The notes under the pieces were generated by a model. That model worked only from the letters and a program-made list of their open reading frames with translations, made no database searches and was not told where the DNA came from. A stretch of DNA of 64,000 bases from Rhizobium sp. NXC14 (lineage in GTDB: Bacteria; Pseudomonadota; Alphaproteobacteria; Rhizobiales; Rhizobiaceae), in assembly GCF_002117485.1 (NCBI RefSeq), contig NZ_CP021030.1, positions 1,181,001-1,245,000 of the forward strand, read 5' to 3'. Position 1 is the stretch's first letter. The number at the start of each line of letters is the position of its first letter. The translations under genes were made by a program, and so were the position numbers. Below, in pieces: positions 61,467 to 64,000 of the stretch.

Positions 61467-62987
61467 TCATCCGGCAACCGAATCAAAAAAACCCTCCGGG
61501 CTCTCCACCTCCACCAGCCGCTTCTTCTCGATCAGCCAGAAGCGGTTTCCCACCGCCCGCACGAAGCTGCGGTCGTGCGATACCAGCAGGCAGCTTGCTT
61601 CATGCGCCATCAACTCGCTTTCCAGCGCCTCCTGGCCTTCAATGTCCAGATGGTTGGTAGGCTCGTCGAGCAGATAGAAGTTCGGCTCCGTCAGCCTTAG
61701 CACCAGCATGCCGAGCCGTGCCTTCTGGCCGCCGGAAAGCTGGCCGATCGGTTTTGCCTGCATATCGATCGTCATGCCGGCCCCGGCGAGCAACGCCCGC
61801 GCCCGCTGGTCGCCGACATCGAAGCGGCGGATGATCATGCCGATCGGCGTATCCTTGTCGGCAAGATCGGCAAGCGCCTGGTCGCCATAGCCGAGAACCA
61901 GCGACGGCGTCGCCTTGATCCCATCCTGCCCGGCCTCCGGTCTCTCGACCGCCTGTTTCAGCATCGACACCAGCCGTGACTTGCCGGCGCCGTTGAGCCC
62001 GAGCAACACGATGCGGTCGCCCTGGCAGATGAACTGACGACCGGTCTTGAACAGCAGCGTCCCGTCCGGCGTCGTCACCGCCGCGTCTTCCAGTGTCACC
62101 AGCACCTTGGCATGAGTGCCGCGGTTGGCAAGCCGAATGGCGCCGGCCGAACGTTCGAGATGCGCCGGTCTTGCCGCATCCTCCAGCTTCTCCGCCCGCT
62201 GCTTCAGCTGCTTCGACTTGACGACGAGCAGGTCGCTGCCGGAATTGATGCCGATATTGGTGAGCTTGGCGGCCTGCTTGCGCAGTTGCTCCGCCGCCTT
62301 CATGTCGCGCTCGTACCGCCGTGCCTCCGAGGCATCGATCTCGTCGAGGGCCGCGCGTGCCCTGCTATAGGGGAGCGCAAAGACCGGCGATTGCTCCGGC
62401 CGCAGGAACAATGTCCGGTTGGTCGTCGCATCGAGAAAGGCGCGGTCATGGCTGGAGAGGATGACCGGCACCTCGCGCGGCAGCGCATTCAACCAGCTTT
62501 CCAGCTGCGCGATCCTCTCGAGATCGAGATGGTTGGTCGGCTCGTCGAGCAGAAGCACGTCGGGCTCGGTGACCCAGTTGCGGGCAATCATCGCGAGCCG
62601 CTGCCAGCCGCCGCTCAAATGCTTCAGCGGCCGGCTGCGCATGGCCTCCGGCACCTCGAGCGATTCCAGCACGAGGTCAACGCGCCAACTCTCGCTTTCG
62701 GCCTGATCGGCCGGCAGCGCCTGCAGCACTGCATCATAGAACGGCGTGTCGAAAAGGGCGGCCGGCACATTCTGCGCGACATGGCCGATCGTCAGCCCCC
62801 GCGCCTTGGTGATCTCGCCCTCGCTCGGCTCCAGCGCGCCGGTGATGCAGGCAAGCAGGGTGGATTTCCCGCGCCCGTTGGCGGCTACGAGGCCAATGCG
62901 GTCGCCTGAATTGACGACGAGATTGAGGTTGGAAAACAGCGGCTTGCTCAGCGCCACGCCGAGATTGCGGATATTGATGAGGGTCAT
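61467..62987 (-). CDS. ABC-F family ATPase (ribosome-associated or resistance type)
   Basis: A soluble protein of 506 residues with two ABC domains and no membrane part. The first has GLVAANGRGKSTLL (Walker A), LSGGWQRLAMIARNW (signature) and VLLLDEPTNHLD; the second has LGLNGAGKSRLVS, LSGGQKARLGML and YLLDEPTNHLD. A linker of about 85 residues rich in Lys, Arg and Ala lies between them. ABC-F proteins act on the ribosome, often giving antibiotic resistance. ATG 62987 is preferred over a longer frame from 63032. A leader ORF and hairpins precede it. Confidence 0.93.
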   Translation of the reverse strand: MTLINIRNLGVALSKPLFSNLNLVVNSGDRIGLVAANGRGKSTLLACITGALEPSEGEITKARGLTIGHVAQNVPAALFDTPFYDAVLQALPADQAESESWRVDLVLESLEVPEAMRSRPLKHLSGGWQRLAMIARNWVTEPDVLLLDEPTNHLDLERIAQLESWLNALPREVPVILSSHDRAFLDATTNRTLFLRPEQSPVFALPYSRARAALDEIDASEARRYERDMKAAEQLRKQAAKLTNIGINSGSDLLVVKSKQLKQRAEKLEDAARPAHLERSAGAIRLANRGTHAKVLVTLEDAAVTTPDGTLLFKTGRQFICQGDRIVLLGLNGAGKSRLVSMLKQAVERPEAGQDGIKATPSLVLGYGDQALADLADKDTPIGMIIRRFDVGDQRARALLAGAGMTIDMQAKPIGQLSGGQKARLGMLVLRLTEPNFYLLDEPTNHLDIEGQEALESELMAHEASCLLVSHDRSFVRAVGNRFWLIEKKRLVEVESPEGFFDSVAG

Positions 62988-63145
62988 GTTCGTTCTCTGG
63001 TCCTGACCGGGAGCAGATGCAATCGGTGGCATCAGGCCATCACGGATTGCGTCTTTCGGGCCCGGGAATAAGAGGAATGCGCGCAGTCATCTGACGGCGG
63101 CGCATCGGCCACGAAGGGCAGACCAGGAAGAGAGTGCGTGCGTCT

Positions 63146-63176
63146 CTGGTCAGCCCTGCAAACGCATTTGCAGGGC
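63146..63176 (-). promoter_or_regulatory. Hairpin in the ABC-F leader
   Basis: On the minus strand GCCCTGCAAA (63176-63167) and TTTGCAGGGC (63162-63153) form a perfect 10-bp stem with a four-base loop, and this lies in the last nine codons of the leader ORF. GACCAG (63151-63146) follows and can pair with CTGGTC (63126-63121). That CTGGTC could instead pair with a second GACCAG (63002-62997) just before the ABC-F start. Confidence 0.6.
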
Positions 63177-63221
63177 GTTGACGGGACCACGCTGGCGATG
63201 ATGCCGGAAATAATACTGCAT
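63150..63221 (-). CDS. 23-residue leader peptide upstream of the ABC-F gene
   Basis: A short ORF from ATG 63221, with an excellent ribosome binding site (AAAGGAGGATCACGCT). It begins MQYYFRHHRQRGP, continues VNALQMRLQG and ends with TGA at 63150. It is rich in aromatic and basic residues. Its last codons lie inside a 10-bp hairpin. The position, 163 bp upstream of the ABC-F gene, and the alternative hairpins suggest a regulatory peptide whose translation senses ribosome stalling. Confidence 0.65.
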   Translation of the reverse strand: MQYYFRHHRQRGPVNALQMRLQG

Positions 63222-63257
63222 AGCGTGATCCTCCTTTCTCGAAAGGGTTGCAGGATG

Positions 63258-63286
63258 GAAATACCATTGCCCGAAAAAAGAGGCAA
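63258..63286 (-). promoter_or_regulatory. Candidate promoter of the ABC-F leader
   Basis: TTGCCT (63286-63281), a 17-base spacer and TATTTC (63263-63258) form a -35/-10 pair on the minus strand. The leader ATG is about 30 bases downstream of the expected start, in line with a compact attenuator unit. Confidence 0.45.
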
Positions 63287-63399
63287 GGGCGGCATAATCA
63301 GCCGCCGCTGAGTGGAGGGGTGGCTCGGTGTCCGGTACTCAAGAGAGCCCCCTCGGGCTTCGCACCTCAGCATGAGAGAGATTGGAGGATGCCGCGCGC

Positions 63400-64000
63400 T
63401 CATAAGCGGGGGGACAATGCCAGCCGCCGTGTTATGCCGATGTTTTCGAGAAACGCCTCGTCGTGGCTGACGACGATCAGCGCCCCGTCATAGGCGCTGA
63501 GACCTGCCTCGACCGCCGATATCGAGTCGATGTCGAGATGATTGGTTGGCTCATCGAGGATTAGCAGCGGCGGCGGTGCGGCGCCGAGCGTGCAGGCAAG
63601 GCCTGCGCGCAGCAATTGGCCACCGCTGAGCGTCGAGACCGTCTGCAGCGCCGCATCAGCCCTGAACATGAAGCGGGCAAGCGCGGCCCGACAGGTGTTT
63701 TCATCGGCTTGCGGGTTGATCCGGCGGAAATTGTCGCGGATCGAGGCTGACGGCTCGAGAAGGCTCACCTTCTGATCGAGCATGGCGAAACCGGTCATTA
63801 CCGAGACGGTGCCGGCCCGGGGCTTGAGCTCGCCGGTGATGAGCGCGAGCAGCGTCGTCTTGCCCGAACCGTTCGGTCCGGTGATGGCAATACGTTCCGG
63901 TCCCGTCACGTCGAATGAGAGATTGTGGATGACGGGTTCATCTGGCAGATAGCCTGCCGTCACGCCGTCGATCTTCAGCACGATCTTGCTGGCCGGCAGC
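63400..64000 (-). CDS. ABC-F family ATPase, C-terminal part (5' end outside window)
   Basis: The frame is open to the right edge and ends at 63400, giving the C-terminal 199 residues of an ABC-F protein. Walker A is TGPNGSGKTTLLA, the signature is LSGGQLLRAGLAC and Walker B is LLILDEPTNHLD, followed by IVVSHDEAFL. It is a different gene from the ABC-F at 61467-62987, though both are on the same strand. Its ABC domain is preceded by LPASKIVLKIDGV. Confidence 0.88.
   Translation of the reverse strand, partial: LPASKIVLKIDGVTAGYLPDEPVIHNLSFDVTGPERIAITGPNGSGKTTLLALITGELKPRAGTVSVMTGFAMLDQKVSLLEPSASIRDNFRRINPQADENTCRAALARFMFRADAALQTVSTLSGGQLLRAGLACTLGAAPPPLLILDEPTNHLDIDSISAVEAGLSAYDGALIVVSHDEAFLENIGITRRLALSPRL

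Follow-up and report, generated by a model that had tools for sequence, protein, structure and literature searches.

Does a short open reading frame (ORF) upstream of an ABC-F gene of Rhizobium sp. NXC14 set, through the ribosome that translates it, how much of the ABC-F protein is made? The question came from a reading of the sequence alone of a 64,000-nt stretch of DNA (the whole of which we call the window), which proposed that the ORF and the hairpins around it form a leader that switches the translation of the downstream gene. Here we followed the leader and its gene through samples of related genomes, analysed what is conserved in both the peptide and the RNA, and folded the leader RNAs with and without a ribosome held on them. 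We consider it likely, on conservation and modelled folding, that the leader and its hairpins act as a ribosome-mediated translation attenuator of the ABC-F gene.

A leader ORF and four pairing segments precede the ABC-F gene

All the elements named by the sequence-only reading are present on the minus strand (Table 1). These are a promoter-like TTGCCT-N17-TATTTC, a strong ribosome binding site, a 23-codon ORF, a perfect 10-bp hairpin near its end (codons 16-23), and two GACCAG copies that compete for one CTGGTC, the second copy just before the ABC-F start. About 160 nt separate the stop codon of this focal leader from the start of the ABC-F gene. The focal leader RNA (293 nt) folded better than 200 of 200 shuffles (z -2.88), and since the arrangement is conserved across the samples described below, it goes beyond what chance would give.

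Table 1 Features of the leader region and the ABC-F gene in the window
Feature	Position	Strand	Basis or remark
Promoter-like TTGCCT-N17-TATTTC	63258..63286	-	Sequence: TTGCCT 63286-63281, 17-nt spacer, TATTTC 63263-63258
Leader Shine-Dalgarno (SD) AGGAGG	63230..63235	-	Sequence
23-codon leader ORF, MQYYFRHHRQRGPVNALQMRLQG and stop	63150..63221	-	Sequence; core R-x-x-G-P-x-x-A-L
Gly12-Pro13 codons, proposed stall site	63183..63188	-	Conservation; stalling inferred
Hairpin 1:2, GCCCTGCAAA-TGCG-TTTGCAGGGC	63153..63176	-	Left arm is segment 1; segment 2 starts within the right arm
Segment 2, GGGCTGACCAGAGA, holds first GACCAG	63143..63156	-	Overlaps right arm of hairpin 1:2
First GACCAG	63151-63146	-	Sequence; at the leader stop
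Segment 3, CTCTTCCTGGTCTGCCC, can pair with segment 2 or 4	63116..63132	-	Sequence and folding
CTGGTC, between both GACCAG copies	63126-63121	-	Sequence
Segment 4, GACCAGAG	62995..63002	-	ABC-F ribosome binding region; second GACCAG 63002-62997
ABC-F family ATPase, 506 aa, gene proposed to be under control	61467..62987	-	ATG at 62987

The leader accompanies the ABC-F gene in many alphaproteobacterial families

Of 61 genomes searched at the DNA level, 37 gave a match: the genome of the window itself, 35 of its 36 relatives in the same genus, and a single further genome. In the same-genus loci that were read the leader preceded the ABC-F gene in 30 of 30, starting 234-289 nt ahead of it. When a first covariance model, built from 27 leaders, was applied to a family sample of 394 genomes it matched 84; the ABC-F (E<=1e-100) was present in 89 and both were found in 82. 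Six further ABC-F genomes, all of one genus, had the leader on reading, which brings the count to 88 of 89, and the remaining ABC-F locus lies at a contig edge. Two model matches in genomes without the ABC-F (G104 and G196, E 0.006-0.0076) were rejected, since no leader was seen on reading.

The association also held among loci found by their ABC-F alone: when 194 relatives were ranked by ABC-F and the top 80 named loci retained, every one had a leader-model match. These loci belong to Rhizobium, Pararhizobium, Ensifer, Phyllobacterium, Aminobacter, Bradyrhizobium and unclassified Rhizobiales. For an order sample of 297 genomes, some of them from the window's family, we used a second leader model and an ABC-F cut-off of E<=1e-90. 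The ABC-F was found in 41 genomes, 38 of them with a strong match to the second model (E<=3.1e-12) and three with a leader on reading, so that all 41 carry it. The weak second-model matches (E 1e-5 to 1e-3, in 25 of the 63 matched genomes) were left out of these counts; one of them, in G516, was genuine and the other 24 genomes had no ABC-F at E<=1e-90. Finally, the class sample of 289 genomes gave eight matches at E<=1.7e-6, the window's own included, all of which precede an ABC-F gene. Here again the weak matches (E 1e-5 to 1e-3, in 22 of the 30 matched genomes) were left out of the counts, and two of these loci, L245 and L246, had no ABC-F.

No genome of the family and order samples had the ABC-F, readable upstream sequence and no leader. 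Overall the leader and the ABC-F occur together in at least 17 alphaproteobacterial families (our handles f1, f6, f11, f16, f20, f23, f35, f37, f38, f44, f50, f74, f86, f108, f144, f158 and f167), with ABC-F identity down to 51%. The sequence-only reading had named a lack of the peptide and hairpins upstream of orthologous ABC-F genes as evidence against its proposal; both are conserved there, well beyond Rhizobium.

Several loci had particular features. The ABC-F was split over two contigs in G536, matched with its C-terminal part only in G275 and with residues 138-503 in G236. At locus L258 (genome G575) an ORF that looks transposase-like by eye lies between the leader and the ABC-F, between about 650 and 2219. 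G575 and G536 both count among the 38 order genomes with a strong match. In the window a second ABC-F gene stands in tandem just upstream on the minus strand (63400-64000, continuing to about 65000 in the genome), and among the 80 top-ranked named loci of the 194 there are 26 with a close copy, of at least 84%, no more than 2 kb upstream.

The leader is constrained as a peptide and as an RNA

Folding started from a set of 155 loci, and the codon and folding counts over 96 loci refer to non-redundant ones. The 155-locus set leaves aside loci whose ABC-F alignment began past residue 1 (such as L054, L088, L101 and L240), as well as L243, L244 and L258, which were missed by the search pattern or the distance limit. 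The leaders, mostly 15-27 residues long, keep the core R-x-x-Gly-Pro-x-x-Ala-Leu, and the third bases of the Gly and Pro codons vary. Specifically, among the 96 non-redundant loci Gly is present in 94 (GGC 71, GGT 21, GGA 2) and Pro in 94 (CCC 48, CCT 27, CCG 15, CCA 4), counts to which the order- and class-sample loci do not add independent evidence, because they entered the folding and codon counts via a pattern requiring GG.CC. Gly falls at codon 11-13 in 87 of the 96, an Arg stands three residues before it in 79, and the two residues before this Arg are variable. The residue directly before Gly-Pro is R in 56 loci, F in 19, H in 9, Y in 6, C in 4, and I and L in one each. Two hairpin codons are near-fixed (GCC in 96/96, CTG in 94/96), and runs such as HHRQR occur in many leaders.

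A set of 112 leaders that leans less on the GG.CC anchor has Gly-Pro in 110, a number that still leans that way in that ORFs with RQ.G were favoured when the leader was chosen and model R1 came from leaders with Gly-Pro. The two exceptions, L099 and L103, belong to one genus and keep the leader and the hairpin, with His-Leu replacing Gly-Pro. Among the named loci, all 17 that were read of the 80 (L185-L201) have Gly-Pro, and L243 and L244 also proved on reading to have such a leader. The idea of a ribosome stalling in the leader had originally been placed at its aromatic and basic codons. The stall can be kept as a proposal, but its site moves: the best-conserved feature is Gly-Pro with the Arg three residues before Gly, not the aromatic or basic run, so that a stall would more likely occur at Gly-Pro.

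Hairpin 1:2 persists also in loci whose leader has an early stop, and some of its changes are compensatory. The stop codon lies inside the left arm in L003; in L109 and L110 the leader ends after Ala-Leu, and in L109 one stem pair has gone from C-G to T-A; and in L111, L112 and L202-L205 the stop falls within the hairpin and the outer stem is kept. Besides L109, compensatory changes were seen in L235, L242, L273 and L274, the last three with GCCCCG opposite CGGGGC. In an alignment of 49 sequences 96.9% of the cells pair, which none of 500 shuffles reached, and both partners change in 3 of 10 pairs, a number reached by 7 of 500; the number of pair types was unexceptional (110 of 500), and sliding the register by -1 gave 7 doubly changed cells versus 6 in the true register. 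The outer stem is nearly invariant in sequence, and six outer pairs never vary in this alignment. Covariation is thin in this hairpin because the outer pairs hardly vary, so it is the preservation of the stem, not covariation, that makes it certain. The leader is thus constrained at the peptide level as well as at the RNA level.

A ribosome held at Gly-Pro is predicted to change the pairing

A ribosome covers about 15 nt beyond its P-site codon, and this footprint was used in the folding. The free focal RNA was predicted to form hairpin 1:2 (9.5 expected pairs) together with 3:4 (10.4), leaving 1.9 for 2:3. A ribosome at Gly12 changed these values to 4.6 for 1:2, 12.7 for 2:3 and 0.1 for 3:4, and one at Pro13 to 0.5, 12.7 and 0.1, respectively, while with a ribosome at the stop codon the prediction for 3:4 was 11.4 expected pairs. 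Across the 96 loci a ribosome at Pro13, compared with free RNA, raised predicted 2:3 pairing in 80 and lowered it in 6, and lowered 3:4 pairing in 73 and raised it in 8. Folding thus predicts mutually exclusive pairings, one of which covers the ABC-F start region. The predicted opening of that region changed by a mean of +0.06 between the free and the Pro13-held RNA (up in 49 loci, down in 18), and in the focal RNA no opening was predicted (0.43 free, 0.36 at Gly12, 0.41 at Pro13, 0.38 at termination).

The 3:4 duplexes had a mean of -12.0 kcal/mol versus -8.95 kcal/mol for dinucleotide shuffles of each locus's own start region, with segment 3 placed by its pairing with segment 2 and not with segment 4. 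They were better than the shuffles at p<=0.05 in 36 of the 96 loci, and in 11 of the 42 without GACCAG or GTCCAG, although these p-values are not independent because the loci are related. Duplexes without support in this test were those of L039, L107, L110, L202-L205 and L217. Segment 4 varies, being GACCGGAAGAA in one Rhizobium group and GATCAA facing TTGATC in L241, and segment 3 tends to follow where segment 4 differs. With the peptide and hairpin conserved and the alternative pairings predicted in most loci, these models support the sequence-only proposal of a leader switch in an alphaproteobacterium that is analogous to those of known ABC-F genes.

The leader is probably transcribed from a start of its own

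A strict sigma-70 scan of positions 62900-63420 returned no promoter. The spacing of the promoter-like sequence, TTG-N20-TAT (a 17-nt spacer), occurs 5' of the leader in 55 of the 96 non-redundant loci versus 0.8 expected from shuffles, and for this reason the transcript probably starts just 5' of the leader. A G-rich SD was also seen before the leaders of other loci that were read. L005 (2942-2882) and L006 (404-464) have a second copy of the leader promoter and SD region, some 1.1 kb upstream of the leader itself.

ABC-F relatives outside the class follow an unrelated leader

Among the 249 genomes of a phylum sample, 17 had an ABC-F match at E<=1e-70. Three phylum-sample genomes from outside the class (families f224 and f228, which we take to be gammaproteobacteria) encode an ABC-F relative of 34-38% identity. 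Ahead of this relative stands a leader of 26-27 residues, unrelated to the one described above, that has a strong SD and whose end is spanned by a hairpin. The same arrangement was found in two more f224 genomes among 15 others searched. Four of the five leaders (L287, L288, L292 and L293) are alike, about M..CE.F..SH..G...SSS...I.LR with an SSSVIDI.LR-type end, and that of L289 is less so. CTTGAG stands at the ABC-F start in four of the five loci and CTTGGG in L293, and one of these leader RNAs folded with a z of -4.49. Two different leaders on related ABC-F genes suggest that leader control is old or was gained twice.

Discussion

We propose that with no ribosome on the leader, or with one that finishes it, segment 3 would pair with segment 4 and cover the ABC-F start region, so that little ABC-F is made; in the free RNA hairpin 1:2 would form as well. 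A ribosome held in the leader, most likely around Gly12-Pro13, would cover segment 1, leaving segment 2 free to pair with segment 3, which would release segment 4 and allow the ABC-F to be made. The trigger could be a drug in the peptidyl-transferase centre or the exit tunnel that slows the Gly-Pro step, or a shortage of rescue activity supplied by the ABC-F itself. In this scheme we infer the stall, its site, its trigger, the exposure of the start and the rise in ABC-F translation.

The scheme is that of the ErmC-type translation attenuator, in which four segments form either 1:2 and 3:4 or 2:3 and segment 4 lies at the start of the controlled gene; the gene differs, being an rRNA methyltransferase gene in ErmC, and the leader peptide is unrelated. 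The closest parallel in design is given by cplR, vmlR, vmlR2 and lsaA, Gram-positive resistance ABC-F genes with a short uORF and the same attenuation design, and for cplR mutants showed that a ribosome held on the uORF changes the pairing and frees the ABC-F SD (PMC10201436). Their uORFs are of 3-4 residues (MRI, MIN, MK[L/Q], MAGN) according to the same paper, unlike the leaders here, which are mostly of 15-27 residues with a Gly-Pro core and in alphaproteobacterial hosts, and cplR also has an intrinsic terminator, unlike the focal window after the leader. A leader peptide also precedes msrD: MsrDL (MYLIFM) stalls at its own stop codon with macrolides and acts through intrinsic-terminator transcription attenuation, as described in the excerpt of PMC10314930.

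The Gly-Pro core recalls SecM, whose core is RAGP, and the RAPP-like (RQH) peptides, for which the excerpted texts list RGPT, RGPS and RGPG as variants; these cores have G-P or A-P after an Arg (PMC12992588, PMC10987492). In our leaders the residue directly before Gly-Pro is Arg in 56 of 96 loci. According to the same excerpts those peptides carry a localisation signal and a spacer of more than 30 residues and control sec or yidC genes, unlike the present leaders, which would stall the ribosome some 10-13 residues in and have an ABC-F as their target. We therefore rejected membership in this group, since leaders of mostly 15-27 residues have no localisation signal with a long spacer and the target is another.

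Several other explanations have to be weighed against translation attenuation. The held ribosome could instead alter premature termination, intrinsic or Rho-dependent, between the leader and the ABC-F gene, for which the roughly 160 nt after the focal leader stop leave room. As far as the excerpts show, msrD uses transcription attenuation (PMC10314930), and in a rhizobial relative, Sinorhizobium meliloti, the uORF of duf1127, which is not an ABC-F, mediates drug-responsive transcription attenuation, presumably through Rho, via the accessibility of its codons (PMC12218461). Moreover in L202 the 2:3 pairing could act as a terminator, since six T come right after segment 3. Against this, segment 4 lies at the ABC-F start, as translation control requires, and the scan of the focal window found no intrinsic terminator between the leader and the ABC-F, the sole terminator-like site in 62900-63420 lying in the promoter region, ahead of the leader. 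We therefore regard transcription attenuation as unlikely.

Leader translation might also act without any specific nascent-chain stall, merely by unfolding the region or feeding ribosomes to the ABC-F. A strong leader SD and an ORF would suffice for such coupling, and no strong SD was seen before the focal ABC-F. This reading, to which we give slightly less credence again, does not sit well with a Gly-Pro kept as amino acids with free third bases, its Gly falling within codons 11-13 in 87 of the 96 loci, nor with a leader stop about 160 nt from the focal ABC-F start, which is far for reinitiation. An attenuator that senses the supply of charged tRNA (Arg, His or Pro) would account for the HHRQR-like runs of many leaders; we hold it to be very improbable, given that the residue before Gly varies (R, F, H, Y, C, I, L), as do the two before Arg, and that the ABC-F is not an amino-acid biosynthesis gene. 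Equally improbable is a structured RNA to which a protein or ligand binds, with the ORF incidental to it: the nearly invariant outer stem of hairpin 1:2 would fit, but the ORF and its Gly-Pro core persist while their codons change synonymously, and Rfam gave no match to the leader RNA, which excludes described families only.

As to what the translation attenuator would respond to, phazolicin, an exit-tunnel inhibitor of rhizobia, was considered as a natural inducer. We rejected it, since strain 3841 carries the leader element (L137) and yet has a phazolicin MIC of 1 uM in the excerpt of PMC6783444, which argues against strong protection. The ABC-F did not reach the curated NCBI cut-off for ribosomal protection (best score 289 versus 380 for ribo_prot_ABC_F). 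A more speculative possibility, which we think doubtful and put forward tentatively, is that the leader works as an intrinsic Gly-Pro arrest peptide and that the ABC-F under its control relieves the stall. The leader would then be a drug-independent homeostat that gauges ribosome-rescue capacity, much as SecM does for SecA, would be old in Alphaproteobacteria, and the unrelated leader before the ABC-F relatives outside the class would do the same job. Feedback by the ABC-F on its leader is a fair guess by analogy, because MsrD acts back on the ribosome stalled on its own leader, according to the excerpt of PMC10314930.

Among the literature matches listed, we found no prior description of this leader. 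In the excerpts of the papers compared here the leader-controlled ABC-F genes are Gram-positive resistance genes; the leader described in this study lies on the chromosome, is conserved widely across Gram-negatives and goes with a single ABC-F clade that is uncharacterised. Its conserved Gly-Pro core predicts a stall site, and the switch would offer a ready reporter for learning which drugs or deficits this ABC-F responds to. A stall that needs no drug would make the leader a feedback sensor of ribosome rescue of a new kind.
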